NCBI GenBank assembly: GCA_016875535.1
Contig: VGPF01000001.1
Coordinates: 1 to 64,000 of the forward strand
Source of the DNA: Chloroflexota bacterium
GTDB taxonomy: Bacteria; Chloroflexota; Dehalococcoidia; SHYB01
Direction: 5' to 3'
DNA: 64,000 bases
Of this stretch, positions 17,680 through 53,752 are shown in pieces; positions within the stretch are counted from its first letter, which is position 1, and every line of letters begins with the position of its first letter. The position numbers and the translations under genes were made by a program. The notes beneath the pieces were generated by a model. That model worked only from the letters and a program-made list of their open reading frames with translations, searched no databases and had not been told where the DNA came from.

Positions 17680-17756
17680 CGCTAGCTCCTACCTTTCCCT
17701 TGCATGGCGACAGCGCCAAAGGCAATCCCCGCCGGCGAGCAAAAGTCGCCAGACAT

Positions 17757-19341: not shown

Positions 19342-19505
19342 CACGCACGCCTCCGCTTCGATCCCCGCTATGGTAGTGGGTGCATCGAAGGCGCGCGTCA
19401 GGCCGTCCGGCGGCAGCCCGCAGCGCGGCCAGGGGCGCGCCGAGAGCGGTTGAAGCGGCGCGCGCATCTGGGTATAGTGGCGGCACTGTCCCTGTGGAGG
19501 CGCTC

Positions 19506-28577: not shown

Positions 28578-28584
28578 GCCGCTC

Positions 28585-29547: not shown

Positions 29548-29551
29548 CGCG

Positions 29552-31994: not shown

Positions 31995-33265
31995 GGCGCC
32001 ATGCTCCGTGCCAGCGCTCCCGGCACCTCCGCGAACGTCGCGCAGCGCGCCGCGGGCGAAAGCGCCTCGTAGATGCGCGTTGCGGCGCCGCCAGTGAAGT
32101 CGCGCCGCTCGAAAGAGCCCGCCTCCACCACGATAAGCTTCGAATCCCGCGGTGCCGCCTCGAGGTTACGCAGGTTGTTCGCGCCGAAGGGCGTCTCACA
32201 GATGACGACGGCCGCCGCGCCCGCCATCAGCTCCTGATGCGCCTTGTGCGCCTCATCGCTGATGCCGCCGAAGGCCGGCGAGGGCACATAGCGGATGCCC
32301 AAGATGTCGGCGGCGCGCCGGTCCGTGTCCCCTGAGCCGAGGACGCACGCCGTCACGGCGAAGCCCGCGCGCTGCAGCTCGTACATCAGGCGCGCGCCGG
32401 AGCCGCCGCCGCAGATAAGATGCACCCGCATCCCCTTCCCGATCGGCTCCGCCGCCGTTGCCGGGTCAAGGAGGCTCAGGGTCAGCGCGCCCGTCAGCGG
32501 ATCGGGGTAGGTGACCGACCGCACGCCGAAGGATGCTTCGATATTCGCAGGCGTCAGCACCATCTCCGGAGGTCCATCGGCCAGGATGCGCCCCCTGTGC
32601 AAGAGGACGAGGCGGTGGCAGAAGCGCGCCGCCAGCGGCAGATCGTGAATCGCGGCGATGACCGTCATCCCCTCGCGCGCCAGGCCCGTCGCCAGCTCCA
32701 GCACGTGGAGCTGGTGCTGGACGTCCAGGTTCGCCGTCGGCTCATCGAGGATGAGGATCGGCGCCTCCTGCGCCAATGCGCGCGCCAGGAAGACGCGCTG
32801 CCGTTCGCCGCCGCTCAGCGTCGCCACGATGCGGTTCGCGAACTGCTCCGTCCCCGTGCGCGCCATCGCCTCCTGCGCCTTGCGCCTATCGCGCTCGCCC
32901 TCCGCCGCGAAGCGCCCCATGCGCGCGTAGCGGCCCATCATCACCACCTCAAGCCCCGTGAAGCCGAAGGTGCTCGGCGCGCCCTGGGCCACGTAGGCTA
33001 CCGCTCGCGCCATGCGCGCCGGAGCGAGCGACTCGATCGCCTGCCCCGCTATCGAAATCTCCCCCGATGTGCGCCGCGCCAGGCCGCTCATCGCCCTGAG
33101 CAGCGTGGACTTCCCCGCGCCGTTGGGGCCCACAAGGCCCAGAAGCTCTCCGCGCCGCGCCTCCAGGCTGACGCCGTGCAGAAGACGCGCGCCGTCCACC
33201 TCGTAGACGAGGCTTTCGACGGCAAGCGCCGCTTCGCCGGATGCGCCTCCGGCCTGGCGCACCAC
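31991..33265 (-). CDS. btuD: Cobalamin ABC transporter ATPase with extra C-terminal domain
   Basis: The ATPase domain (about 14-260) has Walker [10 protein letters not shown] (46-54), signature LSGGERQR (150-157), Walker B LILDEP (171-176) and a switch His in AAIHDLP, close to BtuD/FhuC-type subunits. Residues about 278-424 are an additional alpha/beta domain opening [17 protein letters not shown], with ETPFG and a final region rich in Ala. BtuD proteins normally end near residue 260. The extra domain could bind a nucleotide or corrinoid; its role is unknown. It lies between btuF (11 bases) and cobO (overlap 4). Confidence 0.92.
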
Positions 33266-33276
33266 GGGGCAGGGCT

Positions 33277-34344
33277 TTACTGCGCCGGTCTGCTGAATGG
33301 CGGAAACTCCTTCCCTGCGAAATCGGACGGCCAGAGGATCTTCGCCAGCTCCTCAACACCGCGCACGTTGTAATGCGAAAGCGTAGTGAACAAGCGCGAG
33401 TCCACCAGGTAGACCCTGCCGTTCTTCACCGCAGGGGTTTGGGCGAGCAGGGGATTCGCCAGGAGCGACTTCTTGAACGGCTCCCCGCTATCCGGCGGCT
33501 GCGCGATGATGATGACGCCGGGGTTCATCGTGATCACCGACTCATAGCTGATGACCGGGTTGCGCTCCAGGCCAGCCTCCGCCGCCACATTGATGCCGCC
33601 CGCGCTCTCGATGATCGCCCCCTCCGTGGAGAGCCTCCCTGCAGTGTAGAGCTTATCGCTGAACAGCGTGTAGGAACCGACGCGCTGGCGGGCCGATGCC
33701 GGTTTGCTCTTCACGGCGGCCTGCACCGCGGTGAAACGCTGGTCCACCTCCCGCGCGAACTCCTGGGCGCGCCTCTCCTCGCCGAAGATGTAGCCTGCCA
33801 GGAGGATCTGATTGATCCGGTCCTGGTGATCGTTCTTCAGCTCCGTCTGCACCACCGGGATGCCCGCCTTGCTCACCGCATCCGCAAGCGTCGCGGGCAG
33901 GAGCGAGCTGGCGAAGAGGAGATCGGGCCGCTGGGCCAGCACGGCCTCCGGCTCCCGGCTGATCGTCGCCGCGCCCTTCACCAGGTCGGCGACGTTCGAA
34001 AAGGCGGCGTTCTTCGTCGCCGAGCTCACGGCTACAAGGCGGCCCGTAGGCACCAGCGCCAAAGCGATCTCGTCATGGCCCACTGAAAGCGTGATGATGC
34101 GCTCCGGCTTCGCCTTGATCGCAACGGTGCTGCCGCTGGACGACTTCACCTCCCTGGGCCAACCGAAGTTATCCGGCTTCACGATGGCCGGGACGCCCGC
34201 GAACGGGTTCGCCGCCTGGGGCGGCGGTGAGGTCGGCGGCGCGCCTCTCGGCGATGGCGTCGCCGGTCCGCCGTTGTCGCCGCTGCATGCGGCGACGACG
34301 AGCGCGACCGCGAAAAGAAGAGCAAAAAGGATGCGGTGTTTCAC
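33277..34344 (-). CDS. btuF: Cobalamin ABC transporter substrate-binding lipoprotein
   Basis: A 355-residue lipoprotein with the lipobox VVAAC (Cys20) and a Thr/Pro-rich linker. The class III periplasmic-binding fold starts at [18 protein letters not shown], with [12 protein letters not shown] and [14 protein letters not shown] in the two lobes. It binds corrinoid outside the membrane and delivers it to the BtuC permease. The Glu residues that normally salt-bridge to the permease cannot be located with certainty. It is 15 bases after btuC. Confidence 0.92.
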
Positions 34345-34359
34345 GGAACGGGTCTCCTT

Positions 34360-35436
34360 CTATAGGGCATCTGCATGCCGCTTGTTGCGCAAGAGCAGAA
34401 AGATGAAGAACGGCGCGCCGACCAGAGAGGTCAGGATGCCGACGCGGAACTCCGCGGGCTGGATCACCGTCCGCGCCAGCGTATCGGCGAGGACGACGAA
34501 GACCGCGCCGCCAAGGGCGCTCAAGGGAACGAGGACCCGGTTATCCGGGCCGAAGATGAGCCGCAGGATGTGCGGCACCACAAGCCCGACGAAGCTGATG
34601 ATCCCCGCCACCGCCACCGCCGTCCCCGTCGCCAGCGCCGCCGCTGCGATGATGACCGGCCGCGCAACGCTCACCCGCACGCCCAGGGAGCGCGCCTCGT
34701 CGTCGCCCAGCATCAGGAGATTCAGGTCCCGCGCGAAGGCCAGCATCACCGCCATCCCGCCAAGGATCATCGGCGCGGCGATCCGCACGTGCTCCCACGT
34801 CCGCCCGTCCAGGCCTCCGGCCAGCCAGAACAAGATATCGCGCAGGGCGTCGTTGCGTGGCACCACCACCAGCACGGTCGAGACGATCGCCCCGAGGAAC
34901 GATGAAACGGCGATCCCCGCCAGCAGCAGCGTCGCCATGGAGAAGCGCCCGCCCGCCAGGGCGATGCCGTAGACGAGGAAGGCCGCGCCCAGCGCGCCGA
35001 TGAAGGCGAAGGTCGGCAGCGCGAGGTAGAAGGCCGTGTGCGCGCCGAAGGCGATGGCCAGCACCGCGCCCACCGCGCCGCCAGATGAGACGCCGATGAT
35101 GCCCGGGTCGGCCATGGGGTTGCGGAAGAGCCCCTGCATCATCGCGCCCGAGGCGCCCAGGGCCGCGCCCACCAGCGCGCCCGCGATGATCCGCGGCATC
35201 CGCAGCTGCTCTATCACCAGCTGCTCCGTCGTCGTCGCCTCCGAGGCGTCAACGCTGAACCAGCCGAGGACGACGCTCCACACGTGGCTCAGGGGGATCT
35301 TCACTGGGCCCATCGTCAGGGAGACGAGGCCGACGGCGATGAGGAGGAGCAAGAGCAACAGCGCGCCGAAGGCCAGCCGGGTCGTGACCCGCGCTTCCCG
35401 GTACGCCCCTACCCTTCGCAGCGTCCCTGCGACCAA
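34360..35436 (-). CDS. btuC: Cobalamin ABC transporter permease (FecCD/BtuC family)
   Basis: A polytopic permease of 358 residues with about ten hydrophobic segments. RMPRIIAGALVGAALGASGA, NPMADPGIIGVSSGGA and the coupling region FVGLVVPHILRLIFG are family signatures. The start is TTG 35436: it is the only start codon ahead of the first membrane helix and lies 8 bases after GGAGG. That ribosome-binding site sits inside the terminator-like hairpin downstream of the cobalamin riboswitch, so both transcription and translation could be controlled. First gene of the 12-gene operon. Confidence 0.92.
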   Translation of the reverse strand: MVAGTLRRVGAYREARVTTRLAFGALLLLLLLIAVGLVSLTMGPVKIPLSHVWSVVLGWFSVDASEATTTEQLVIEQLRMPRIIAGALVGAALGASGAMMQGLFRNPMADPGIIGVSSGGAVGAVLAIAFGAHTAFYLALPTFAFIGALGAAFLVYGIALAGGRFSMATLLLAGIAVSSFLGAIVSTVLVVVPRNDALRDILFWLAGGLDGRTWEHVRIAAPMILGGMAVMLAFARDLNLLMLGDDEARSLGVRVSVARPVIIAAAALATGTAVAVAGIISFVGLVVPHILRLIFGPDNRVLVPLSALGGAVFVVLADTLARTVIQPAEFRVGILTSLVGAPFFIFLLLRNKRHADAL

Positions 35437-35884: not shown

Positions 35885-37138
35885 CTACCCGAACTTCACC
35901 GACGTGCCGATGATATTCCGCCCCTTCAGCGTCGCGATCTCATCCTGCGAAAGGTTGAGTACCTCGCTGAAGACGAAGTCGTTGTCCTCGCCGATCGTCG
36001 GCGGCGCCTTGCGCGGCGAAGCCGGCGTCTTGGAGAGCTTCGGCGGGAAGCCGTAGTAGGGCATCGGCTCCGGGCCGTTCACCGGGCGCAGGATCCACCA
36101 CCAGAAGTCCCGCGCCTTCAAGGCCGGGTCCTCCAGGATCGTCGCGTAGTCCACCACGTCCGCCGCCATCACGCCTCGCCCTTGCAGCACCTCCATGATC
36201 TTCGCGCCCGTCCGCTCCTTCGTCCACCGGGTAATGATCTCCCCCAGAGCATCCTGGTTCTCCCACCGGGTGATCACATCGGCGAAGCGCGGGTCGTGTT
36301 TGAGGCGCGGCTGGCCCATCGCGTCGCACAGCTTCGCGAACTCCTCGTCCGCCTTGCAGACGATCGCCACCCACTTGTCGTCGCCCTTGCAGCGGAAGGC
36401 CCCATGGGGCGACCACGCCGGATGCTTATTCGCCATCCGCTCGCGCACGCGCCCGTTCATCGTGTAGTCCATCAGCGTCGCCGAGGTCATGTGCGTGATG
36501 GCCTCCGCGCTGGACATGTCTATGTATTGCCCGCGCCCCGTCACGCGCCGGTGCTCCAGCGCCATCAGCGTCGCCACCGCGCCGAAGGAGCCGGCCAGGG
36601 GATCGCTCATCCCGCCCTGCATCATCGGCGTCGTGTCCGGGTAGCCGCTCATATAGGTGATGCCGGAGGCCTGCTCGAACTGCGGCCCGAAGCCCACGTA
36701 GTTCTCCCAGGGCCCGCCGTGGCCGAAGCCCGGCATGGAGACCATGATCGCGCTGGGGTTCGCCTTGTGGACGAAGTCCCACGTGATGCCTAGGTTCTTG
36801 CCCACCCGCGCGCTGAAGTTCTCCGAGACCACGTCGCTCACCGCGATGAAGCGCTTCAAGATCTCGCGCCCGTCGTCGGAGTCCAGGTCCAGGGTGATGC
36901 CCAGCTTGTTCACGTTCGTGCCGTTGAAGACCGTCGCCCACTCCAGGGGGTCCTTGTCCCGCGCGCCGCCCATGATGCGCACGCTGTCGAACCGCTTCGC
37001 CGATTCGATCTTGATGACCTGCGCCCCAAGGTTCGCCAGGAACATCGTGGAGAAGGGCCCAACCCAGAACATCGTCAGGTCCGTCACGCGGACGTTGGAA
37101 AGCGGAAGATGCGGCTTCTGTCGGTATGCCTGTGTCAT
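35885..37138 (-). CDS. CaiB/BaiF family CoA transferase
   Basis: A 417-residue family-III CoA transferase. It has LPLSNVRVTDLTMFWVGPF and LGAQVIKIES at the N-terminus, and the nucleophile Asp169 (GGMSDPLAG) 25 residues before GRGQ. MPGFGHGGPWENY and the closing PPTIGEDNDFVFSEVL are typical. It is the last of five genes transcribed from 41205: acyl-CoA dehydrogenase, two crotonases, two CoA transferases. It lies 8 bases after its neighbour; the two are not close copies, so they may form a heteromer or act on different acids. Confidence 0.92.
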   Translation of the reverse strand: MTQAYRQKPHLPLSNVRVTDLTMFWVGPFSTMFLANLGAQVIKIESAKRFDSVRIMGGARDKDPLEWATVFNGTNVNKLGITLDLDSDDGREILKRFIAVSDVVSENFSARVGKNLGITWDFVHKANPSAIMVSMPGFGHGGPWENYVGFGPQFEQASGITYMSGYPDTTPMMQGGMSDPLAGSFGAVATLMALEHRRVTGRGQYIDMSSAEAITHMTSATLMDYTMNGRVRERMANKHPAWSPHGAFRCKGDDKWVAIVCKADEEFAKLCDAMGQPRLKHDPRFADVITRWENQDALGEIITRWTKERTGAKIMEVLQGRGVMAADVVDYATILEDPALKARDFWWWILRPVNGPEPMPYYGFPPKLSKTPASPRKAPPTIGEDNDFVFSEVLNLSQDEIATLKGRNIIGTSVKFG

Positions 37139-37146
37139 AGCGCCTC

Positions 37147-38349
37147 TTACAGCACGCCCTGCTCGGAGAGGATGACCATCTCTTCCCTGGAAAAGCCCAG
37201 CCGGTTGCAGTAGACCTCTTCATTGTCCTGGCCTAGTTTCGGGGCCTTCCTTCGGAGCCGCCACGGCGTCGCGTTGAGGTTGAAGGGCCGCCCCGGCGCA
37301 TCGGCCTTGCCCGTCTTCTCGTTGCCGACGTCGGCGAAGAAGCCCCGGGCGTGGAACTGCGGGTTGCGCGCCACGCGGTCGGCGCTGGCCACGGGCGCCG
37401 TCGGCACGCGCATCTCCTGGCCCAGCTTTACCACCTCGTCCACGGCGCGCTCCTTGAACCACGGCCCCAGGACTTCCATCGCGGCGTCCGGGTTCATGTT
37501 CCGCGCCAGGGGCGTCGCGAACCGCTCGTCCTCCTGCATCCAGACCTTGTCCGTCAGGACGCTCAGATACTCCCACTGGTGCTGCAGCATCACGTAAAAG
37601 CCGATGAAGCCGTCCTTGCACGGCACGATGGGCATGGGGAATTTGTTCCCCCGGCGTCCCTGGGGCATTGAGCGGTAGAAGAGGCCCAGCGTCGGGTTCG
37701 CCAGGGCCGTGATGAAGGCCTCGCGTATCGAGATATCTATGCGCTGGCCGCCATACTGCCCCCGCCCGAAGATCGCGCCCAGCGTTGTCCCGGCGGCGTA
37801 AAGCCCCGCCATATGCTCGGCCACATCTTCGCCCGCCCGCAGCGGCTCGCGCCCGGGGAGGCCGCCGCCGGAAAGCAGGCTGGAAGAGGCCCAGTGCAGC
37901 AGGTCCGTCCCTTTGTAGTCCTTGTAGGGGCCTGTCTGCCCGTAGTCCGTGATGGAGACGATGACCAGGTCCGGGTTCGCCGCCTCCAGCTCTTCGAACG
38001 AAAGGTCCCAGGAGGCCATCGTCCCCGGCGCATACGTCTCCACCAGCACATCCGCCTCTTTCGCCAGCGATTTCAGGATCTCCGCGCCGGTGGCGGTGGA
38101 GGGATTGAGCGTGATGCTCTTCTTGTTCGTATTGAGGAAGAGGTGCTGGCCGCTCGCCTCCGGGTCAATGTGGTCGTCCTTGAACGGCCCCGCCTGGCGC
38201 TCCGGCGCTCCGGCCACGGGCCGCTCGACCTTGATGACCTCCGCGCCGAAATCGGCCAGGAACTTCGTCGTGTAGCTCCCGGCTATGCGCGTGCTTAGGT
38301 CAATGACGCGGAGATGTCCGAGGGCGGTAAGCGGTTGCGTGGCAGGCAT
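37147..38349 (-). CDS. CaiB/BaiF family CoA transferase, Glu near the nucleophile position
   Basis: The 400 residues start at ATG 38349, where the family motif LGHLRVIDLSTRIAGSY begins soon after. FGAEVIKVERP and ITDYGQTGPYKDYKG are typical. Aligned on the downstream Gly-Gln motif with a one-residue gap, Glu178 (AEHMAG) falls at the nucleophilic Asp, with Asp175 three residues before, so activity cannot be assumed. It is 20 bases after the crotonase and 8 before the next CoA transferase. The preceding reading frame is an accidental extension into the crotonase gene. Confidence 0.88.
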   Translation of the reverse strand: MPATQPLTALGHLRVIDLSTRIAGSYTTKFLADFGAEVIKVERPVAGAPERQAGPFKDDHIDPEASGQHLFLNTNKKSITLNPSTATGAEILKSLAKEADVLVETYAPGTMASWDLSFEELEAANPDLVIVSITDYGQTGPYKDYKGTDLLHWASSSLLSGGGLPGREPLRAGEDVAEHMAGLYAAGTTLGAIFGRGQYGGQRIDISIREAFITALANPTLGLFYRSMPQGRRGNKFPMPIVPCKDGFIGFYVMLQHQWEYLSVLTDKVWMQEDERFATPLARNMNPDAAMEVLGPWFKERAVDEVVKLGQEMRVPTAPVASADRVARNPQFHARGFFADVGNEKTGKADAPGRPFNLNATPWRLRRKAPKLGQDNEEVYCNRLGFSREEMVILSEQGVL

Positions 38350-38369
38350 ACTCGGGTGGCAGGCGCCGC

Positions 38370-39167
38370 TTATTGCATCTTGAAGTTTGCTTTGCGCTTC
38401 TCCGCGAAGGCCCGCAGGCCCTCCCTCGCGTCGTCGCTCGTAAAGCAAACGTTCGAATGGTGCGACTCGGTGTAGTAGGCGATGTCCGTCGGCACCTCTT
38501 GCGTCAGCATGACCGACCGCTTGATGGCCTGCAGCGAGATGGGACCGTTGGCAATCATCCGCTCGGCGTAGTTCACCGCCGTCGGCAGCAGGTCCTTGAG
38601 CGGCACCACCCTGTTCACCAGGCCGCAGCGCAGCGCCTCCTGCGCCGTCACGCGCCCGCCGCTCCCGCCCACCAGCAGCAGCTCCATCGCCATCACATAC
38701 GGAATCTGGCGCGGCAGCCGCACAGTGGTTCCGCCGCCGGGGAAGAGCCCCCACCGCACCTCGGCCACCGCGAAGGTGGCGTTCTCGGACGCGATGCGGA
38801 TGTCTGTGCCGCAGAGCAGCTCCATGCCGCCCGCGATGCAGTAGCCGTTCACCGCCGCGATCATCGGCTTCCAGAAGTCCATGCCCTTCAGCACCCCAGG
38901 CACCACCATATCGAACTTGGTGAACCGCCTGCCCTCTGTCGCCTTCGGGATGAACGTCTTCAGGTTGCCCCCGGCGCAGAAGGCCTTCTCGCCCGTGCCG
39001 GTGATGATGCCGACGATGATCTCGTTATCGTCTTTGATCGTCTTCCACGCCGCTTCCAGGCCATCCATCACCTCTTGGTCCATCGCATTGTGGACCTCGG
39101 GCTTGTTGATGGTCACGATGGCGTAGCCACCCTTGCGCTTTTCGAAGATGACGGCTGGGCCTGGCAT
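38370..39167 (-). CDS. Enoyl-CoA hydratase/isomerase family protein, duplicate 1
   Basis: A 265-residue crotonase. The oxyanion-hole segments FCAGGNLK and NGYCIAGGMEL are present, as are both acid-base positions Glu116 and Glu136 (AEVRWGLFPGGG), so hydratase activity is plausible. It is 86 percent identical by hand count to the adjacent gene at 39180-39977; residues about 112-265 are nearly the same and the difference is concentrated at 80-100. It lies 12 bases after that copy and 20 before a CoA transferase. Confidence 0.92.
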   Translation of the reverse strand: MPGPAVIFEKRKGGYAIVTINKPEVHNAMDQEVMDGLEAAWKTIKDDNEIIVGIITGTGEKAFCAGGNLKTFIPKATEGRRFTKFDMVVPGVLKGMDFWKPMIAAVNGYCIAGGMELLCGTDIRIASENATFAVAEVRWGLFPGGGTTVRLPRQIPYVMAMELLLVGGSGGRVTAQEALRCGLVNRVVPLKDLLPTAVNYAERMIANGPISLQAIKRSVMLTQEVPTDIAYYTESHHSNVCFTSDDAREGLRAFAEKRKANFKMQ

Positions 39168-39179
39168 GGTCGCCTCGCT

Positions 39180-39977
39180 CTACTGCATCTTGAAGTTGGC
39201 TTTGCGCTTCTCCGCGAAGGCCCGCAGGCCCTCCTTCGCGTCGTCGCTGCTGAAGCAGACGTTCGAATGGTGCGACTCGATGTAGTAGGCGATGTCCGTC
39301 GGCACGCCTTGGGTCAGCAGCACGGAGCGTTTGATCGCCTGGAGCGAAAGCGGCCCGTTGGCAATCATCCGCTCGGCGTAGTTCACCGCCGCCGGCAGCA
39401 GGTCCTTGAGCGGCACCACCTTGTTCACCAGGCCGCAGCGCAACGCGTCCTGCGCCGTCACCCGGCCGCCGCTCCCGCCCACCAGCAGCAACTCCATCGC
39501 CATCACATAGGGGATCTGGCGCGGCAGGCGCACCGTGGTCCCACCGCCGGGGAAGAGCCCCCACCGCACCTCGGCCACCGCGAAGGTGGCGTTCTCGGAC
39601 GCCACGCGGATGTCCGTGCCGCAGAGCAGCTCCATGCCGCCTGCGATGCAGAAGCCGTTCACCGCCGCGATGATGGGCTTGTAGAGGTCCATGCCCTTCA
39701 GCACGTTCGTCGAATTCACATCGAAGCGGCGGCGGATCTTGCCTTCCGTCGCCTTCGGGATATACGTCTTCAGGTTGCCGCCTGCGCTGAAGGACTTCTC
39801 GCCCGCGCCCGTGACGATCCCCACGATGATCTCGTGGTCGTCGCGGATCGTGCGCCACGCTTGATTCAAGCCGTCCATCACCTCTTGGTCCATGGCGTTG
39901 TGCACATCCGGCTTGTTGATGGTGACGATCGCGTAGCCGCCCTTGTGCTTCTCAAAGATGACCGCTGGTCCTGCCAT
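39180..39977 (-). CDS. Enoyl-CoA hydratase/isomerase family protein, duplicate 2
   Basis: A 265-residue crotonase, tandem copy of 38370-39167 with an 810-base period. Oxyanion-hole segments FSAGGNLK and NGFCIAGGMEL and catalytic Glu116 and Glu136 are intact. The variable stretch at 80-92 (KIRRRFDVNSTN) probably lines the acyl pocket, so the pair may have split substrate range. It follows the acyl-CoA dehydrogenase gene by 94 bases on the same strand. Confidence 0.92.
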   Translation of the reverse strand: MAGPAVIFEKHKGGYAIVTINKPDVHNAMDQEVMDGLNQAWRTIRDDHEIIVGIVTGAGEKSFSAGGNLKTYIPKATEGKIRRRFDVNSTNVLKGMDLYKPIIAAVNGFCIAGGMELLCGTDIRVASENATFAVAEVRWGLFPGGGTTVRLPRQIPYVMAMELLLVGGSGGRVTAQDALRCGLVNKVVPLKDLLPAAVNYAERMIANGPLSLQAIKRSVLLTQGVPTDIAYYIESHHSNVCFSSDDAKEGLRAFAEKRKANFKMQ

Positions 39978-40071
39978 GTATGACTCCTTGGTGCGCGCCC
40001 GGGCCTCTACCGGCCTCCGGCCTGCGCCATTATCTTCAGATTGCCCGGATGGGGCAAATCGCTTCGCTGTT

Positions 40072-41205
40072 TTAGAACCCCAGGCTCTGCGCCACCGCTT
40101 CCCTGTGCTGGTCCGGCCCGCCGTACAGCTGCTCCCAGCCCTTCGCGCGCCGGAAGTAGAGCTGGGCGTTCATCTCCTTCGTGAAGCCGATCCCTCCGTG
40201 GATCTGGATCGCCGTCCGCGTCATCCGCGTGTACGTGTTCGCCACATACGTCTTCGCCATCGCGATCTCTTGGTCGCACGTGCGCCCTTCGCTCAGGAGC
40301 CACGCTGCCTCGTATGCGATCAGGCGCATCGTGTCCACGTCCGTCACGATGTTCGCCGCGTGGTGCTGGACCGCCTGCAGCGTCGCCAACGGCCGCCCGA
40401 ACTGCACGCGCCCCTTCACATATTCCACCGTGCTCTCCAGCAAGCCCTGTCCGCCGCCCAAGGAGAGCACTGCCTGCCCCGCGATCGCCCACTGCATCAC
40501 CCGCTTCACGATAGGCCACCCCTTGCCGGGCTTCCCCAGGATGCGGTCCTTCCCCACCGTGACGTTCTTGAAGACGACTTCGCACTGCTTCTCAAGGCTT
40601 ATCGGCTTCAGCCTGTTCACCGTGATTCCGGGCGCAGCCCCGTCCACGATGAAGACCGTGATGCCCTCTTCCGGCGTTCTGCCCTTGCTCGTGCGCACCG
40701 CCACCAGCAGCACATTCGCCACGTTCGCGTTCTCCACGAACGTCTTCGTGCCGTTGAGCTTGTAGCCGCCGCCCGCCGCCTTCGCCGAAAGGTTGATCCC
40801 CTTCGCCGAATAGCTTGAGCTCGGCTCGGCGATCGCGAACGTTCCGATGCTTTCGCCCGATGCCAGGCCGGGCAGGAAGGCCTTCTTCTGCGCCGCCGAC
40901 CCGTACTTGGTGATCGGCAACCCGGCCAGCACCACCGTGCTGAAGAGCGGGATCGGCGCCAGCGAGCGCCCCAGCTCCTCAAGGAGGACGGCCAGGTCCA
41001 GGAACGATCCGTCCGCCCCGCCGTGCTCCGCGGGGTACGGCAGGCCCAGCCAGCCCAGCGAGGCCACCTTGCGCCACAGCTCCGGCGAATAGCCCTTCTC
41101 GTCCTGCTCCATCGCTCGGATCAGCGCGCCCGACGACTCCTTGGAGAAGAAGTCACGCGCCGCCTTCCGCAGAATCTCTTGTTCCTGGCTGAGGTTGAAA
41201 TCCAT
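40072..41205 (-). CDS. Acyl-CoA dehydrogenase, smaller-subunit type
   Basis: A FAD-dependent acyl-CoA dehydrogenase of 377 residues. The N-terminal helical part includes LGLPYPAEHGG, the middle domain FAIAEPSSSYS, and the C-terminal part QIHGGIGFTKEM. The end reads LYGGPDQHRE where medium-chain enzymes have YEGT, so the usual C-terminal base Glu is absent. Such sequences often pair with another dehydrogenase in heterotetramers, as FadE26-FadE27 do. The divergent gene at 41383 is the natural partner. First gene of a five-gene operon. Confidence 0.9.
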   Translation of the reverse strand: MDFNLSQEQEILRKAARDFFSKESSGALIRAMEQDEKGYSPELWRKVASLGWLGLPYPAEHGGADGSFLDLAVLLEELGRSLAPIPLFSTVVLAGLPITKYGSAAQKKAFLPGLASGESIGTFAIAEPSSSYSAKGINLSAKAAGGGYKLNGTKTFVENANVANVLLVAVRTSKGRTPEEGITVFIVDGAAPGITVNRLKPISLEKQCEVVFKNVTVGKDRILGKPGKGWPIVKRVMQWAIAGQAVLSLGGGQGLLESTVEYVKGRVQFGRPLATLQAVQHHAANIVTDVDTMRLIAYEAAWLLSEGRTCDQEIAMAKTYVANTYTRMTRTAIQIHGGIGFTKEMNAQLYFRRAKGWEQLYGGPDQHREAVAQSLGF

Positions 41206-41349: not shown

Positions 41350-41382
41350 GCCCCCATACCTTTCTCCTCAAGGAATCCCTCC

Positions 41383-42567
41383 ATGGACTGGCGTTTTACC
41401 CCCGAGCAGGACCGCTTCCGCGCCGAGGTCAAGGCCTTCCTCGCCTCTGCTCTTCCCAAGAGCTGGGACGGCGATAACAATAAAGACCGCGAGCTGCCCG
41501 AAGGCAAGTCCTGGACCAAAGCCTTCGTCAAGCAGCTCGTCGCCAAGGGTTGGTTCACCATGGCATGGCCTAAGGAATACGGCGGCGCCTCCCGGCCCAT
41601 CATCGAGCAGGTCATCTACAAGGAAGAGATGTCCTACCACAACGTCTCCGTCCCCACCCTGGGCGGCGCAGGCGTCTCCTGGGTCGGCCCCGCCCTCATG
41701 CAGGCCGGTACAGCCGCCCAGAAGCAGGACTTCCTGCCCCCCATCTCCAGGGGCGAAGTCTACTGGTGCACCGGCTATAGCGAGCCCAACACCGGCTCCG
41801 ACCTCGCCGCCCTGGAAACCCGCGCCGTCCGCGATGGCGACGACTATGTAGTGAACGGCTCCAAGATCTGGACCAGCTCCGCCCACCTGGCCGATTGGTG
41901 CTGGCTCGCGGTCCGCACCGACGCGAAGGCCCCCAAGCACAAAGGCATCTCCGTCCTCATGACGGATATGCGCGCCCCCGGCATCCGCGTGGAGCCCATC
42001 CACGATATCTCCGGCGGCCACCACTTCAACCAGGTCTACTTCGATGATGTCCGCGTCCCCGTCCGCAACCGCGTCGCCGAGGAGAACAAGGGCTGGTACA
42101 TCATCGCCATGGCCCTGGACTTCGAGCGCTCCGGCATCTCCGGCGCCGCCACCAACCTCCGCCGCCTGCATGACATGCGCGACTTCTTGAGCCAAGGCGT
42201 CTGGCAACGGCTGCCCCAACAGCGGAGGGACATGCTCCGCTACAAGCTCGCCGAGCGGGAGATCGAGGCGCGCGTCGGCCGCAACATGTGCTACCGCATC
42301 GGCTGGATGCAGAGCCGGGGCCTGATGCCCAACGCCGAGACCTCCATCACCAAGCTCTTCCTCTCGGAGTCCGCCCAGCGCATCTCCGCGCTCGGCATGG
42401 AGGTCTTAGGCCTGTGGTGCCAGCTCTCCCCCGGCTCAACGTCCGCGCCCCTGGGCGGCATCTTCCCCCGCCGCTACCTCTTCGATAGGTCGGCCACCAT
42501 CGCCGGCGGCACCTCGGAGGTCCAGCGCAACGTTATCGCCACCCGGGGCCTGGGGCTGCCGCGCTAG
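41383..42567 (+). CDS. Acyl-CoA dehydrogenase
   Basis: The 394 residues start at ATG 41383 with AAGGA upstream; the longer frame upstream covers the divergent promoter. MAWPKEYGGA, YSEPNTGSDLA (FAD/substrate region) and VNGSKIWTS are typical of the middle domain. The end TIAGGTSEVQRNVIATRGLG has Gly at the medium-chain catalytic Glu position, as in enzymes that carry the base on another helix. It is probably a partner of the divergent dehydrogenase. Almost the same C-terminus is found in the partial gene at 63836. Confidence 0.92.
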   Translation: MDWRFTPEQDRFRAEVKAFLASALPKSWDGDNNKDRELPEGKSWTKAFVKQLVAKGWFTMAWPKEYGGASRPIIEQVIYKEEMSYHNVSVPTLGGAGVSWVGPALMQAGTAAQKQDFLPPISRGEVYWCTGYSEPNTGSDLAALETRAVRDGDDYVVNGSKIWTSSAHLADWCWLAVRTDAKAPKHKGISVLMTDMRAPGIRVEPIHDISGGHHFNQVYFDDVRVPVRNRVAEENKGWYIIAMALDFERSGISGAATNLRRLHDMRDFLSQGVWQRLPQQRRDMLRYKLAEREIEARVGRNMCYRIGWMQSRGLMPNAETSITKLFLSESAQRISALGMEVLGLWCQLSPGSTSAPLGGIFPRRYLFDRSATIAGGTSEVQRNVIATRGLGLPR

Positions 42568-42698: not shown

Positions 42699-43532
42699 CT
42701 ACGCGCTCGCGCCCTCGACGTACTTCGGCACCGGGCAGCGCCCAAGGAAGCCGCGCCCGCCGTCCACTAGGATGTTCTGCCCGCTGATGAACTCCGCGGC
42801 GGGCGAAAGCAAGAAGGCCACCGCCCCCGCGATGTTCGCAGGGAGGCCCTTGCGCCCCAGCGGCGTCATCTTGATCGTCTCATCTATATAGTCGGGTCGC
42901 AGCGCATTGCTCTTCGTGGAGAGCGGCGTGATGATGGAGCCAGGCGAGACGCTGTTCACCCGGATGCCGTAGCGCCCCAGCTCGCCGTTCAGCGATTGAC
43001 TCAAATTGATGAGCCCCGCCTTCATGGAGCCGTACAGCGCCAGGTTCTCGTGCCCCCACATGCCGCCGATGGAGGCGATGCTGACGATGGCTCCGCCTTT
43101 CCCTTGCTTAATCATCTGGTTCGCCACCGCCCGCGTCACCAGGTAGACGGACTTGGCGTTCATCACGTAGATCGCCTCCCACTGCTCCTCCGTTGTCGCG
43201 TAGATCGGCCGCGGCCCCACGCCCGCCGTCCCGCCCACGTTGTTCGCCAGCAGGTCAACCTGCCCGAACTCCTTCACCACCTTCTGCACCATCGCCTCCA
43301 CAGAGGCCTGGCTGCGCACGTCCACGGAGACGCCGATGGCCTTCTGCCCGCGCGCCTGCGCCTCGGCCACCGTCTGCTCCCGCGTCATCTCGTTGATCTC
43401 CGCCACGGCCACATGCGCGCCTAGGTTCGTCAGCGCCTCCACGATCCCCTTGCCGATGCCCTGCCCTCCCCCGGTGACGATGGCCTTCTTGCCCGTCAGG
43501 AGATATGCCTCTGGTGTGATCATCGTAATCAT
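42699..43532 (-). CDS. Short-chain dehydrogenase/reductase
   Basis: A classical SDR of 277 residues starting at ATG 43532 (GAGG upstream; a second ATG follows three codons on). TGGGQGIGKG is the cofactor motif, NNVGG the NNAG equivalent, with catalytic Ser in IASIGG and Tyr/Lys in YGSMK. SGQNILVDGGRGF closes the fold. The Ala-Glu-Ile end of beta-2 favours NAD(H). It is the last gene of the run that begins with the thiolase-like gene at 48534, 91 bases after another SDR; the gap holds a repeat. Confidence 0.9.
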   Translation of the reverse strand: MITMITPEAYLLTGKKAIVTGGGQGIGKGIVEALTNLGAHVAVAEINEMTREQTVAEAQARGQKAIGVSVDVRSQASVEAMVQKVVKEFGQVDLLANNVGGTAGVGPRPIYATTEEQWEAIYVMNAKSVYLVTRAVANQMIKQGKGGAIVSIASIGGMWGHENLALYGSMKAGLINLSQSLNGELGRYGIRVNSVSPGSIITPLSTKSNALRPDYIDETIKMTPLGRKGLPANIAGAVAFLLSPAAEFISGQNILVDGGRGFLGRCPVPKYVEGASA

Positions 43533-43623: not shown

Positions 43624-44397
43624 CTATCGGAACGGCACCGTGTAGTGGACGTTGTAGCCGGAGTCCACCCACAGCGTCTGTCCCGTGATATGCCGCGATT
43701 CGTCCGATGCCAGGAACGTCGCCGCGTAGGCGATGTCCTCCGGGTCGTTGATGCCCAGCAGGCCCTTCGTCTCGTACGATTTCCCAAAGCCGCCCTGGTC
43801 CTGGAAGCGCGCCTGGATGCGCGCCGTCTTCGTGCCGCCCGGCACGAGCAGGTTCGCCCGCACCTGCTGCGGCAGGTACTGCATCGCGATGGTGCGCATC
43901 AGCGCCTTCAGGCTCCCCTTGGCCGTCGCGTAGGCGTTGTAGTTGATCGCCCCATCCAGCGCCACGGAGGCCGTATAGAGGATGGAACCTCGCCCGTTCT
44001 TCACCATGTGCGGCAGGGCGTACTTCGTGCAGTAGAAGGAGCCGTTCAGGTTCACGTCCAGCGTCTCGTGCCAGACCTCCAGCGGCAGCTCCGCCGCGCC
44101 CACCTTCTCCACGATCGAGTACCCGGCGTTGTTGTACATGATGTCCAGCTTGCCGAAGGCGGCGACGGTCTCGTTCACCATCTTCTCCACCTCCTGCGCG
44201 TTGCGGACGTTGGTGACGAGGGCCTTCACCGTCCCAAGCGACTTCAGCTCCTTCTCCGCGTTCGCGCTCGCCTCCGGATCCTTATCCGCTATGACGACCT
44301 TCGCCCCCTCCTTCAGGAACATCTGCGCTCCGGCGAAGCCGATCCCTCGCGCGCCGCCGGTGATCACCGCCACTTTGCCTGCCAATCGTCCTGCCAT
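43624..44397 (-). CDS. Short-chain dehydrogenase/reductase
   Basis: A 257-residue classical SDR. TGGARGIGFA cofactor motif, ADKD at the end of beta-2 (NAD preference), NNAG, catalytic Ser in TASVAL and Tyr/Lys in YATAK. HITGQTLWVDSGYNVHYTVPFR ends the chain. It follows the CoA transferase at 44416 by 18 bases and so belongs to the thiolase/DUF35/CoA transferase operon, where a 3-hydroxyacyl-CoA oxidation step would be expected. Confidence 0.91.
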   Translation of the reverse strand: MAGRLAGKVAVITGGARGIGFAGAQMFLKEGAKVVIADKDPEASANAEKELKSLGTVKALVTNVRNAQEVEKMVNETVAAFGKLDIMYNNAGYSIVEKVGAAELPLEVWHETLDVNLNGSFYCTKYALPHMVKNGRGSILYTASVALDGAINYNAYATAKGSLKALMRTIAMQYLPQQVRANLLVPGGTKTARIQARFQDQGGFGKSYETKGLLGINDPEDIAYAATFLASDESRHITGQTLWVDSGYNVHYTVPFR

Positions 44398-44415: not shown

Positions 44416-45678
44416 TTATGCGCCCGCCTCCCATAATTCAACGACCCCTTCGCCCAACAGCCGGTCATACTCCTCGTTGGTATACCCCAGGAATCGTTTG
44501 TATACAAGCTCCGAATGTTCGCCAAGGCACGGCGCGGCCATCCGCACGCTCCCCGGCGTCGCCGAAAGCCTCGGCGCCAGCATCTCGCTGTGGTGCGGCC
44601 CTATCTCGGTGTGCGTCACCGTGCCGTAGTGCCCGCGATGGTTCAGCTGCGGGTCCTCGAAGAGCCCTTGCTGATCGTGGGCCAACCCGGCGGAGACGCC
44701 CGCCGCCTGCATCGCCGCCATCACGTCCTTCGCCTCACGCCTCGTCGTCCATTCCGCGATGAGCGCGTCCAGCGCGTCGCTATTCTTGCACCGCTCCAGC
44801 GCCGTGGCGAAGCGCCGCTCCCGCGTCCACGCCGGGTTGCCGATCACCGTGCAGAAGGCGTGCCACTCCTCTTGGGAAAAGACCCCGATGGCGATCCACC
44901 GGTCGTTCCCCTTGCAGGGGTAAGCCCCGTGGGGCGCGGCGCGCGGCAGGTCGCCCGCCATCAGCTTGTTCCCGGCCCGCGTCTGGTTGCGCCCGTTCAT
45001 CGTGTAGTCAACGATGGCGTCGCCCAGCAGATAGACGGATGTCTCGAACTGCGAAAGGTCAATATATTGCCCCTTGCCCGTTCGCGCCCGGTAGTCCAGG
45101 GCGGCGGAGAGGGCAAGCGAGCCGAACTGCGGCGATGTGGCGTCCGTGTAGACGATGCTCACGCCGCTGGGCGCGCCGTCGGGATAGCCGGTCAGGTTCG
45201 CGAAGCCCACCAGCCCCGCCAGCATCGGCCCCAGCCCGGGCAGCGAGGCCTGCGGTCCCGTCTGCCCTTGGATGGAGAGAGAGATCATGATGATGCCGGG
45301 GTTGATCTGCTTCACCGATCCGTAGTCCAGCCCCCATTTCGCCATCTGCCCCGGCGTGAAGTTCTCGATGAGCACGTCCGCCCACTCGATGAGCCGCCGC
45401 GCCGCTTTCAGGCCGGAAGGCTTGTTCAGATTCATCGTGATGCCGTACTTGTTGATATTGCAGGCGGCGAAGTAGGCGCTCTGGTTGATGGAGAACTTCC
45501 CCTTCCAGAAGGGCGGCCCCTTCCGCAGGCCGTCCACCTTGCCCATGGACTCCACCTTCACCACCGTCGCGCCGTAATCGGCGAGCCACCGTGCCGTCAT
45601 CGGCCCGGCGGCGATCCACGAGAAATCGGCGACTTTGACCCCGGCGAGCGGCCCGGCGGGCGCGCCCTGCTTGCTCAT
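44416..45678 (-). CDS. CaiB/BaiF family CoA transferase
   Basis: The 420 residues open LAGVKVADFSWIAAGPMTAR with YGATVVKVES. The nucleophile is Asp179 (VYTDATSP), 25 residues before GKGQ. LSIQGQTGPQASLPG and the final PCLGEHSELVYKRFLGY are typical. It overlaps the upstream CoA transferase by 4 bases (ATGA). That partner lacks the nucleophile, so a heterodimer with one working and one non-catalytic subunit is possible. Confidence 0.92.
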   Translation of the reverse strand: MSKQGAPAGPLAGVKVADFSWIAAGPMTARWLADYGATVVKVESMGKVDGLRKGPPFWKGKFSINQSAYFAACNINKYGITMNLNKPSGLKAARRLIEWADVLIENFTPGQMAKWGLDYGSVKQINPGIIMISLSIQGQTGPQASLPGLGPMLAGLVGFANLTGYPDGAPSGVSIVYTDATSPQFGSLALSAALDYRARTGKGQYIDLSQFETSVYLLGDAIVDYTMNGRNQTRAGNKLMAGDLPRAAPHGAYPCKGNDRWIAIGVFSQEEWHAFCTVIGNPAWTRERRFATALERCKNSDALDALIAEWTTRREAKDVMAAMQAAGVSAGLAHDQQGLFEDPQLNHRGHYGTVTHTEIGPHHSEMLAPRLSATPGSVRMAAPCLGEHSELVYKRFLGYTNEEYDRLLGEGVVELWEAGA

Positions 45679-46934
45679 GCCACACCCGCCGCGCGCAGGA
45701 CGGCCTGCTCCGCTTTGCCCAGGCCCAAGACGCCATCCAGGATCTCACCGTTGTGCTCGCCAAGCAGCGGCGGCCGTCCCTTCGCCTGCCAGGGCGATTC
45801 GGAAAAGATGAAAGGCGCGCCGATGGTCTTCACCGGCCTATCGAACGCCGGATGCTCCACCTCCACAAAGTAGCCGCGCGCCTGCAATTGCTCGTTCTTC
45901 GCGATGTCCGATGGCGTGTTCACCGGGTAGACCCACAGCCCGTGCTTCACCGCCATCTCAAAGATCTCCGCCTTCGTGTGGCGCATCTGCCAGTTGACGA
46001 AGACCTCCTCAACTCGGTGCACCTGCGCCTCCGTCGGCTCCCACTGCCCCGGCAGCGCGCCGAAGGGGCTGGCATCCAACCACTTGGGGTCCACCAGCTC
46101 CTCCGCCACGCCGTCCGCCTTCATCAGCCCCAGCAGCGGCGGAAAGGCCGTGCCGAAGATGGCGGCGTTCGCCGTGTAGCCGTCCTTGCACGGCGCCAGC
46201 GTCAGCGGCTTATAGTGCCCGAAGTTCATCCGGTCGCCCGTGCGCGCCACGTTCGTCTTGTGCATCGTCCACCAGGAGGTGATGGAGCCGGGCCCGTTGA
46301 GGCAGAACTTCACCGCCTCCTGGATGGAAAGGTCAACGCGCTGGCCCTCCCCCGTTCGCGTCCGGTGGAAGAGCGCGAAGCACGTCCCCGTCGTCGCTTG
46401 CAGATTGGATGTCAGATAGGCCTGCGGCGGCCCCATGCGCACCGGCGGCCGGGTCGGCTCGCCCAGGAGAAACATCACACCCCCCAGCGCCATCAGCACC
46501 AGGTCGCTCCACTTGTAGCCGCTGTACGGCCCCGTCTCGCCGAAGCCCGTGACGCTCGTCATCACCAGGGAGGGGTTCTCCCGCTTCAGCGTCCCGTAGT
46601 CCAGCCCCAAGCTCTCCAGCAGGCCCGGCGGCTGGCTCGTGAGAAAGACATCCGCCGTCTTGATGAGCCGCCGCGCCAGCTCACGCCCCTGGGCCTGCTG
46701 CACGTCCAGGGTGATGCTCTTCTTCCCGGCGTTGAAGACCCAAAAGGCCAGGCTCCGCTCCGGGTGCGGCTCGTCCTTGTAGAAGGGGCCGAAACCGCGG
46801 ACCGGGTCGCCCCCAGGCGCCTCGATCTTGATGACCTCCGCGCCCAGTCCCGCAAGAATCCGCCCGGTGAACTGGCCCCCTTCGCCCGCGAATTCGACGA
46901 CGCGGTAGCCCGTCAGCGGGCCCGGTCGGGTCAT
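45675..46934 (-). CDS. CaiB/BaiF family CoA transferase homologue lacking the catalytic Asp
   Basis: The 419 residues start at ATG 46934, overlapping the DUF35 gene by 4 bases. The fold markers LTGYRVVEFAGEGGQFTGR, LGAEVIKIEAPGGDP and VTGFGETGPYSGYK are clear. The nucleophile position, 25 residues before GEGQ, is Tyr173 (PQAYLTSN). The homologue at 60081 has the same Asp-to-Tyr change, so this is a subgroup trait and not random decay. Either the group has another chemistry or it needs the adjacent Asp-containing subunit. Confidence 0.9.
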   Translation of the reverse strand: MTRPGPLTGYRVVEFAGEGGQFTGRILAGLGAEVIKIEAPGGDPVRGFGPFYKDEPHPERSLAFWVFNAGKKSITLDVQQAQGRELARRLIKTADVFLTSQPPGLLESLGLDYGTLKRENPSLVMTSVTGFGETGPYSGYKWSDLVLMALGGVMFLLGEPTRPPVRMGPPQAYLTSNLQATTGTCFALFHRTRTGEGQRVDLSIQEAVKFCLNGPGSITSWWTMHKTNVARTGDRMNFGHYKPLTLAPCKDGYTANAAIFGTAFPPLLGLMKADGVAEELVDPKWLDASPFGALPGQWEPTEAQVHRVEEVFVNWQMRHTKAEIFEMAVKHGLWVYPVNTPSDIAKNEQLQARGYFVEVEHPAFDRPVKTIGAPFIFSESPWQAKGRPPLLGEHNGEILDGVLGLGKAEQAVLRAAGVA

Positions 46935-47356
46935 CGCGCGCTCTTCGCCGGGCGGAACTTCGGCAGCGTGATCTGCTCGGTGACCTTCTCGAAGACCACT
47001 TCCACCGGCATCCCGATCTTGATCTGGTCGTTGGGGCACTCCACCATGTTGCTGATCATCCTCGTCCCCTCTTCCAACTGCACCAGGATCACGTTGTACG
47101 GCACCTTGTCCTGGAAGGCCGGCAGCACCGGCGGGTGGACGATGATCCAGGAGTAGATCGTCCCCTTGCCGGAGGCCTGCACCCATGTCCACTTCATCGT
47201 GCCGCAGTGTGGACAGCCCATCGTGGGGAAGTGCCGCAGGCGGTTGCAGCCGCCGCACTTCTGGATCAGCAGCTTCCCTTGCTTCGCCGCCTCCCAGTAT
47301 TCGCGGTCCTCGTCGGACGGGACGGGAACAACAACAGGTTTCGATTGGGTCGTCAT
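46931..47356 (-). CDS. DUF35 OB-fold protein with zinc ribbon
   Basis: The 141 residues start at ATG 47356. A rubredoxin-like zinc ribbon (Cys34, Cys37, Cys48, Cys51 in CGGC and CPHC) precedes an OB-fold (GTIYSWIIVHPPVLPAF to MPVEVVFEKV). DUF35 proteins bind thiolase-like partners; in ChsH2 this domain docks Ltp2 to form the steroid side-chain aldolase. It overlaps both neighbours by 4 bases, so equimolar production with the thiolase-like protein is expected. It likely binds acyl-CoA and scaffolds its partner. Confidence 0.92.
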   Translation of the reverse strand: MTTQSKPVVVPVPSDEDREYWEAAKQGKLLIQKCGGCNRLRHFPTMGCPHCGTMKWTWVQASGKGTIYSWIIVHPPVLPAFQDKVPYNVILVQLEEGTRMISNMVECPNDQIKIGMPVEVVFEKVTEQITLPKFRPAKSAR

Positions 47357-48534
47357 GATGGCTGGCTCCCAAGGATGAAGGCGCTGGTGGGGCTGAAGTT
47401 GCCGCTGGCCACCAGCACCACTTCGGCATCCTTCACCTGGCTGGTGGAGGTCCCGCGGATCTGCCGCACCGCCTCCGTGATGAGGTTGAAGCCGTGGAGG
47501 TAGATCTCGGAAAGGCTCCCGCCGCTCGTGTTCGTCGGGATGGCGCCGTTCGGCCACTGCATATTGCCCGCCGCCACAAAATCGCCCGCCTCGCCGCGCT
47601 TGCAGAAGCCGAAGTCCTCCAGGCCGATGAGCACCCTAGGCGTGAAGGCGTCGTAGATCATCGCCGCATCCACGTCCTTGGGGCCCACGCCGGCCCGTCC
47701 GTAGATCATCTTCGCCACCGCCGCCGATTCCGTGGAGAAGAGCGATTCCTTGTAATAATTCGTCCCCGGCACCGTCATGAAGACGTTCGCGTTCCCCGTG
47801 GATAGGATGTAGGCGGGCTTCTGCTTTAGCGCCTTCGCCCGCTCCACGCTCGTCACCACGATCGCCGCTCCGCCGTCCGTCTCCAGACAGCAATCGAAGA
47901 GCCGCAGCGGCTCCGCGATCCAGCGCGCCGCCAGGTAGTCCTGCATCGTCAGCGGCTCCCGCATCAGCGCCGCGGGATTCCGCATCGCGTGGGCGCGCTC
48001 CGCCAGCGCCACGTGGCCGAAGTGCTCATACGTGATGCCGTACTCGTACATGTAGCGGCGCGCGATGACCGCCATCTCCTGCACCGCCGCGATGAGCCCG
48101 TACGGGTTGCTGAACTTCTTCCCCAGCTCCCGCACCTGCATGGACATCTTCTCCCAGGGGCGTCCGCCTTCGAACTGCCCCGGCCCGCCGGACGATTGCT
48201 TCCCGCGGTTGCGCGCGCGGAAGACCACCACGTAGTTCGCCAGGCCGCCCTTGATCGCCAGGTCCGCCATCTGCACGGCGTTCGACCCGGCATTGCCGCC
48301 CCCGGGCGCCACGGAGAAATAGCTGAGCTGCGGGATCCCGAGGTTGTAGGCCAGCTGCCACTCGGAGTTCGTGTCCAGGGAGTAGCGGACGATGCCGTCC
48401 ACATCCTTCATGGAGATGCCGGCGTCCGCCACGGCGTTCTGGATCGCCTGATAGGCGACCGCCGCCTCGCTTATCCCGATCTTTCTCGAAAAGGCCGTCT
48501 GTCCGATGCCGACGATAGCCGATTGCGCAGGCAT
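47353..48534 (-). CDS. Ltp2-like thiolase-fold protein (probable retro-aldolase subunit)
   Basis: A thiolase-superfamily protein of 393 residues, with GGAGG before its ATG. The thiolase Cys is missing (APGGGNAGSNAVQ) and the C-terminal GHP motif is replaced by SEIYLHG. Tyr294 (MIYDAFTP) and Tyr345 sit where I recall the catalytic tyrosines of Ltp2 from Thermomonospora curvata (294 and 344). With the overlapping DUF35 gene this matches the Ltp2-ChsH2 arrangement that cleaves 3-hydroxyacyl-CoA side chains. First gene of a six-gene operon with two CoA transferases and two SDRs. Confidence 0.88.
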   Translation of the reverse strand: MPAQSAIVGIGQTAFSRKIGISEAAVAYQAIQNAVADAGISMKDVDGIVRYSLDTNSEWQLAYNLGIPQLSYFSVAPGGGNAGSNAVQMADLAIKGGLANYVVVFRARNRGKQSSGGPGQFEGGRPWEKMSMQVRELGKKFSNPYGLIAAVQEMAVIARRYMYEYGITYEHFGHVALAERAHAMRNPAALMREPLTMQDYLAARWIAEPLRLFDCCLETDGGAAIVVTSVERAKALKQKPAYILSTGNANVFMTVPGTNYYKESLFSTESAAVAKMIYGRAGVGPKDVDAAMIYDAFTPRVLIGLEDFGFCKRGEAGDFVAAGNMQWPNGAIPTNTSGGSLSEIYLHGFNLITEAVRQIRGTSTSQVKDAEVVLVASGNFSPTSAFILGSQPS

Positions 48535-48619: not shown

Positions 48620-48649
48620 AAGGCCCTGCGGGGTCATCCGCAGGGCCTT
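48620..48649 (-). terminator. Rho-independent terminator of the substrate-binding protein gene
   Basis: A 12-bp stem AAGGCCCTGCGG/CCGCAGGGCCTT with a 6-base loop. On the minus strand it is followed by TCTTTTTGGGG. It separates the binding protein gene from the thiolase operon. Confidence 0.85.
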
Positions 48650-52624: not shown

Positions 52625-53752
52625 CTACACCGTCAGCACAAGGTTGATGTGCTGCTGGAACGTCCCGCCGTTGCCGCCCACCACCGCCGTCTCATGCTTT
52701 GCCGCCTGGCGTTCGCCCCCCTGGCCGCGCAGCTGCAGCACCGCCTCCGTCACGTGCCCCCAGTTGTGCAGATAGACCTCCGAGAGCAGGCCGCCGCTGG
52801 TGTTGAAGGGCAGCGCGCCGCCGGGGGCCAGCTTCCCATCGGCCACAAAGGGCCCGCCTTCGCCCTTGGGGCAGAGGCCGTAGTCCTCCAGCGTGATGAC
52901 GATCGCCGGGGTGAAGCAGTCGTAGACCTCAAAGAGGTCAATGTCCTTGAGCTTCAGGCCCGCCATCGCCAGGGCGCGCGGCAGGGAGTCCTTGGCCGGG
53001 CTGATGAGCGCCGGGTCGTTGAAGATGCTGCCCGCCAGGGTCTTCTCCGCATAGCCCTTCAGGTAGACGGGCTTTTGCCGCAGGGACTTCGCGCGGGCCG
53101 CCGTGGTCACGATGAAGGCCCGCCCGCCATCGCTCTGAAGACAGCAATCGAAGACGGTGAGCGGCTCGGCCACCCAGCGCCCCTGCATATACGTCTCCAG
53201 GTCAAAGGGCCGCCCGTTCATCTGCGCCATGGGGTTCTTCTGCGCCCACTGCCGCGCCGCCAGGGCCACCGCCGCCAGGTGCTCCCGCTTGGTGCCGTAG
53301 CGGTGCATGTGCCGCTGGGCCACCACCGCGTAGTTCATGGCGGCGCTGTTCATCCCGAAGGGATTCGTGAACTGGTTGCCGGAGAGCTCGCCGGTGCGCA
53401 CGCCGCCGCCTGCCAGGGAAAAGCCGGAGTTGCCGTAGCAGCAGAGCACCACGTCGGCCACGCCGGCCTTGATGCCCAGCGCCGCCTGCATCGCCAGCAT
53501 GGAGGCCGTGGTGCCGTAGGGCGCGATCATGGTGGAGTAGCGCGGCTGGATGCCCAGCATCTCGGCCACATCCACCGGGTAGATGCTGCCGTTCCCCTGC
53601 ACCAGGATGCCGTCTATATCGGCGGCCTTCAGCCCCGCATCGGCGATGGCGGCGGCCGAGGCTTCCAGGCAGAAATGCTTGGGCGAAACGCCCGGCAGCC
53701 GCCCCTGGCGCGTATAGCCCACGCCGACGATCGCGATGTCCGGTGCGCTCAC
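52625..53752 (-). CDS. Thiolase-like protein lacking the nucleophilic Cys
   Basis: The 375 residues start at GTG 53752. IAIVGVGYTRQGRLPGV opens the fold. The Cys position reads APYGTTASMLA, without Cys. Tyr in FEVYDCFTP and SEVYLHN is conserved with the other two copies, as is LEDYGLCPKGEGGPF. The GHP catalytic His is absent. It has no DUF35 partner beside it, in contrast to the gene at 47353. It follows the luciferase-like monooxygenase at 53824 but is separated from it by a strong terminator. Confidence 0.87.
   Translation of the reverse strand: MSAPDIAIVGVGYTRQGRLPGVSPKHFCLEASAAAIADAGLKAADIDGILVQGNGSIYPVDVAEMLGIQPRYSTMIAPYGTTASMLAMQAALGIKAGVADVVLCCYGNSGFSLAGGGVRTGELSGNQFTNPFGMNSAAMNYAVVAQRHMHRYGTKREHLAAVALAARQWAQKNPMAQMNGRPFDLETYMQGRWVAEPLTVFDCCLQSDGGRAFIVTTAARAKSLRQKPVYLKGYAEKTLAGSIFNDPALISPAKDSLPRALAMAGLKLKDIDLFEVYDCFTPAIVITLEDYGLCPKGEGGPFVADGKLAPGGALPFNTSGGLLSEVYLHNWGHVTEAVLQLRGQGGERQAAKHETAVVGGNGGTFQQHINLVLTV

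Follow-up and report, generated by a model that had tools for sequence, protein, structure and literature searches.

A predicted Ltp2-like thiolase-fold retro-aldolase with a stand-alone DUF35 partner in a CoA-transferase operon of a Chloroflexota bacterium

The closest described relatives of the gene pair analysed here are retro-aldolases with a thiolase fold that work with a DUF35 protein. In the Ltp2-ChsH2(DUF35) complex of Thermomonospora curvata (6ok1), Tyr294 of TcLtp2, within a YDHF motif, is the base and Tyr344 the acid, and His296 lies in the oxyanion hole, where its replacement causes only a 14-fold loss (PMC12329534). The bile-acid aldolase Sal-Shy(DUF35) of Comamonas testosteroni (9myr) shares the base tyrosine (Tyr302), uses Cys304 of its YDCY motif as second catalytic residue and carries Gln in place of the second tyrosine. 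A thiolase-fold protein and a DUF35 protein are also encoded together with E- and F-type CoA-transferases and two short-chain dehydrogenases (SDRs) in the bbs operon of anaerobic toluene degraders (BbsAB, BbsEF and BbsCD; PMC10818641), where BbsAB is a true thiolase. According to current thinking, SAR202-type Chloroflexota use large paralog families of monooxygenases, dehydrogenases and CoA-transferases to oxidise dissolved organic matter that is long-lived (PMC5395668), and cyclic alkane, sterol- and hopanoid-like compounds have been proposed as substrates of these expansions (Landry 2017).

We analysed a window of 64,000 nucleotides (contig VGPF01000001.1, assembly GCA_016875535.1) from the genome of an uncultured bacterium, which measures 2.52 Mb and is 98% complete. 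A preliminary description had read a Chloroflexota origin from this DNA, which our analysis supports, and had placed on its minus strand overlapping reading frames for a thiolase-fold and a zinc-ribbon DUF35 protein. Both are found there: the predicted retro-aldolase of 393 aa (47353..48534) and a stand-alone DUF35 protein of 141 aa (46931..47356), its putative partner, with a C34-C37-C48-C51 zinc ribbon and an OB fold, share the four bases ATGA (47356-47353). As had also been described, further 4-base overlaps join the DUF35 gene to that of an E-type class III CoA-transferase (CoA-transferase 1, 45675..46934, minus strand; overlap 46934-46931) and the latter to that of an F-type enzyme (CoA-transferase 2, 44416..45678, minus strand; overlap 45678-45675). 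The two SDR genes that had been listed next in this order, one with a YATAK motif (43624..44397, minus strand) and one with a YGSMK motif and an uncertain start codon (42699..43514, minus strand), stand about 18 and 109 bases apart from the gene before them. Upstream, a strong terminator-like hairpin on the minus strand (48620..48649; 12 pairs, then CTTTTT) separates the aldolase gene from that of an ABC binding protein, so that the unit starts at the aldolase; the ABC transporter was rejected as an operon member on the same ground. Beyond the SDR genes lie a convergent acyl-CoA dehydrogenase gene (41362..42567, plus strand) and a second minus-strand gene run (35885-41205), which begins with another acyl-CoA dehydrogenase (40072..41205, minus strand) and also holds genes for two crotonases and for a further CoA-transferase pair of the E/F type; the membership of both dehydrogenases is uncertain. 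There is no hydratase in the aldolase operon; enzymes for dehydrogenation, hydration and cleavage are encoded within 13 kb, but not on one transcript.

The best solved relatives of the two overlapping genes are the two chains of a single Ltp2-ChsH2(DUF35) aldolase complex. The aldolase matches 6ok1_A with 325 bits (E 6e-96; runner-up 192 bits) and the DUF35 protein matches 6ok1_B with 125 bits (E 1e-35; runner-up 87 bits), and the Pfam assignments are Thiolase_C_1 for the former and zf-ChsH2 plus OB_ChsH2_C for the latter. An AF2 model of the aldolase (pLDDT 86.4, pTM 0.91) ranks 6ok1 first in structural comparison (TM 0.88-0.92, 43% identity), before 4u4e, Sal and SCP2 thiolases. Of these, 4u4e, an uncharacterised putative thiolase of Sphaerobacter thermophilus (Chloroflexota), is a related thiolase-fold protein that likewise lacks the thiolase Cys, but it differs in its YDSF motif, in a His at the position of Tyr345 and in belonging to another clade. 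The NCBIfam model PRK07855 (NF005892, lipid-transfer protein) scores the aldolase at 445.6 bits, just below its curated cut-off of 469.

Alignment places Tyr294 (codon 47653..47655) and Tyr345 (codon 47500..47502) of the window aldolase at TcLtp2 Tyr294 and Tyr344, the equivalence that had been stated in the preliminary description; that account overlooked the replacement of the oxyanion-hole His296 by Ala (codon 47647..47649), which turns YDHF into YDAF. Its term Cys-less does not hold literally, as C216, C217 and C311 are present, but is right for the two thiolase positions at which a catalytic Cys would stand: by alignment, this protein has none of the thiolase residues in question, be it the nucleophilic Cys, the His-Cys of the HDCF motif or the His of GHP. 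Relative to Sal, the window aldolase has Ala at the Cys position and keeps the second tyrosine. Predicted fold, lack of the thiolase Cys and His residues, tyrosine base and DUF35 partner together mark the pair as a putative DUF35-dependent thiolase-fold retro-aldolase in the wider sense, and the earlier assignment to an Ltp2/ChsH2-like pair finds support in the sequence, in the predicted fold and in the two catalytic tyrosines.

Across 140 aligned sequences Tyr294 is found in 132 and Tyr345 in 113, and position 296 is occupied by His (63 sequences), Ala (42) or Cys, Asn, Val, Pro, Phe, Gly or Ser. Judged from this alignment, residue 296 varies freely in the family while the two neighbouring tyrosines are mostly fixed. 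The loss of His296 may nevertheless signal another chemistry. Near relatives, some sister clades among them, have lost Tyr345 (YDHF/F, YDFF/F) or Tyr294; possession of the fold is thus no guarantee of aldolase activity, and each clade calls for its own test. Loss of C-C cleavage in the window protein, leaving a non-catalytic or repurposed acyl-CoA binder, or an acyl transferase, of thiolase fold with its DUF35 companion, would accommodate both Ala296 and these missing tyrosines; we consider it unlikely, as both tyrosines are retained in the window protein, in its ortholog of 89% identity and in the wider YDAF clade, which spans several phyla.

In a tree of 49 sequences (IQ-TREE), steroid Ltp2 proteins of Actinomycetota and Steroidobacteraceae form one clade together with TcLtp2 (support 100/100), and the window aldolase falls into a separate one (100/99) with sequences from Acidimicrobiia, Streptomyces, Myxococcota/Deltaproteobacteria, Binatota and Chloroflexota. 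A tree constrained to place it and the two sequences nearest to it within the steroid clade was worse by 73 log units (AU test, p=0.0003). His296, in the YDHF motif, is present in every steroid-clade member collected. Gene order differs as well. Genes of the steroid clade have DUF35 upstream, as a rule in a frame that also holds the ChsH2 MaoC domain (42 of 44, the fusion being judged partly from reading-frame lengths), and downstream in none, and acyl-CoA dehydrogenases are nearby in 37; non-steroid Ltp2-like genes have a stand-alone DUF35 gene directly 3' in 66 of 75 cases. By sequence, then, the clade of the window aldolase is related to, yet distinct from, the steroid Ltp2 aldolases. We found no assayed member of it in the literature. 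Of 25 cases in the broad YDAF clade, 12 have a crotonase gene no more than 700 bases away, a hint at crotonases as the source of the 3-hydroxyacyl-CoA there. Occurrence outside the actinobacteria, as suggested earlier, is not in itself new, since Ltp2 and Sal are known from Proteobacteria (PMC12329534) and many phyla contain Ltp2-like genes.

The same results bear on the sterol-like side chains that had been put forward as substrates. An aldolase that cleaves a propionyl (C3) side chain from a sterol- or bile-acid-like acid would be in keeping with TcLtp2 as the closest characterised protein and with the convergent acyl-CoA dehydrogenase 5 kb off, closest to 4x28_A and 6wy9_A, which are subunits of heteromeric steroid dehydrogenases. 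The sterol- and hopanoid-like substrates proposed for related SAR202 bacteria would fit too (Landry 2017). Such a function is nonetheless very improbable given the strongly supported position outside the steroid clade and the AU test. The window (1-64000) contains neither a MaoC domain nor a ChsH2-type fusion, and the DUF35 protein is stand-alone, downstream and accompanied by no ChsH1, unlike in the 6ok1 system. KshA (PF19298), the one steroid-ring marker searched, is absent from this genome and from two others (G090, of the same genus, and G075), while the search recovered it in four actinobacterial control genomes and, as a weaker match, in a deltaproteobacterial one. Its absence is not proof, because a Steroidobacteraceae MAG with a true Ltp2 has no KshA match either. 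In addition, hsaC was not found in Chloroflexi (Holert 2018). The tree, the AU test, the order of the genes and the search for KshA led us to reject a steroid operon, and with it the earlier suggestion of sterol-like side chains.

The remaining genes of the operon recall the bbs system. CoA-transferase 1 is closest to chain A of benzylsuccinate CoA-transferase 9fn0 (225 bits, 90 bits against chain B) and CoA-transferase 2 to chain B (264 bits, 96 bits against chain A); both share a Glu with 9fn0 where the single-chain relative 4ed9 has Asp. From these matches we infer that the two probably form one heteromeric CoA-transferase. E- and F-type CoA-transferases and an operon composition parallel to that of the bbs genes (PMC10818641) would also suit a bbs-type beta-oxidation operon with a thiolytic end, comprising CoA-transferase EF, two SDRs and a BbsAB-like thiolase-DUF35 pair. 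We regard this as improbable: the aldolase is without the nucleophilic Cys, HDCF and GHP His, its match to BbsB reaches no more than 86 bits, compared with 325 for that to Ltp2, the SDRs are generic and not specifically BbsC- or BbsD-like, and the genome has neither a benzylsuccinate synthase nor any other glycyl-radical enzyme for fumarate addition (PF02901). Full bbs homology was accordingly rejected, the CoA-transferases being the part that fits. The genome of the same genus, G090 (70% complete), keeps the aldolase (89% identical) and the DUF35 gene with an unrelated gene downstream, which identifies the pair as the conserved unit; its best match to CoA-transferase 2 is 49% identical and not a close copy, so that the link of the pair with the CoA-transferases may be peculiar to one lineage. 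The gene that follows the pair in the sister genome (L046:7834-8517) starts MAELRIVNPIAQPRAATANADRF and does not encode a CoA-transferase.

Retro-aldol cleavage of a 3-hydroxyacyl-CoA by the DUF35-stabilised thiolase-fold pair is the mechanism that best accounts for these observations, and we consider it likely. From sequence, alignment, phylogeny and gene order we infer its chemistry, the complex, the order of the pathway and the class of substrate as follows. The probable CoA-transferase heteromer would convert an imported acid into its CoA thioester, and hydroxyl or carbonyl groups, on either the substrate or the product, may be the targets of the SDRs. Tyr294 would accept a proton from the beta-hydroxyl of the 3-hydroxyacyl-CoA, the bond between C-alpha and C-beta would then break, and protonation of the acyl-CoA enolate by Tyr345 would yield a ketone or aldehyde and a short acyl-CoA. 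With Ala at position 296, stabilisation of the enolate oxyanion would have to come from backbone amides, water or a different side chain. DUF35 is predicted to bind to a dimer of the aldolase in the manner of 6ok1; it carries no hydratase. The acid that is cleaved is probably branched or alicyclic and not a steroid. A more specific and rather unlikely proposal is an aldolytic version of bbs-type catabolism, in which a heteromeric succinyl-CoA-dependent CoA-transferase would activate a 2-substituted dicarboxylic or branched acid and the Tyr/Tyr aldolase, in place of a thiolase, would release succinyl-CoA or propionyl-CoA together with a ketone or aldehyde. If true in several paralogous cassettes, this would amount, for these Chloroflexota, to a modular, ATP-free kit against many recalcitrant branched or alicyclic acids.

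The genome encodes 24 thiolase-like proteins complete enough to align, and these offer concrete enzymes for assay: 13 have the Tyr/Tyr combination, three (on contigs C23, C10 and C52) keep the residues of classical thiolases and provide an internal contrast, and the others have His, Phe or Arg at position 345. Automatic names such as 'lipid-transfer protein' and 'acetyl-CoA acetyltransferase' mask this diverse aldolase-like family. Alongside them are 20 DUF35 domains and 106 class III CoA-transferase domains, 86 of which are arranged in 43 tandem pairs. A CoA-transferase pair lies on the same strand within 3 kb of 6 of the 24 thiolase-like genes, where 1.9 would be expected; with a simple null model of gene placement, which ignores the general clustering of catabolic genes, p is about 0.009. 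As far as gene content can tell, these paralog counts extend the SAR202-type catabolic expansion to a predicted C-C-cleaving step. We did not find a C-C-cleaving thiolase or aldolase step described for these expansions in Landry 2017 or in two later SAR202 papers; the aldolases named in one of the latter are COG3836 sugar-acid enzymes.

Several further observations concern relatives and neighbours of these genes. Some E/F-type CoA-transferase pairs are fused into one chain of 780-930 aa (e.g., at 15349-17688 of the window). Two Ltp2-like genes adjoin thiolase-fold relatives (L021:2-1054 and L030:2-1072) whose motif, DDSY, lacks the base tyrosine and which have His at 345; these relatives may be inactive partner subunits. 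In two other Ltp2-like proteins (L081:7959-9170 and L095:2273-3574) the base tyrosine is gone (FDHF/F and VEPF/F) and a DUF35 gene still follows each. Within the window, two more Ltp2-like paralogs (19380-20663, plus strand, and 52625-53752, minus strand) have a YDCF motif and keep the second tyrosine, which combines a Sal-like Cys with an Ltp2-like Tyr; the latter gene is 90 bases from that of a luciferase-like monooxygenase. Finally, a minus-strand stretch (26888-35436) holds cobalamin assembly genes (CobD/CbiB, CobS, CobT-like, aminotransferase and phosphatase) adjoining a FecCD-type ABC transporter.
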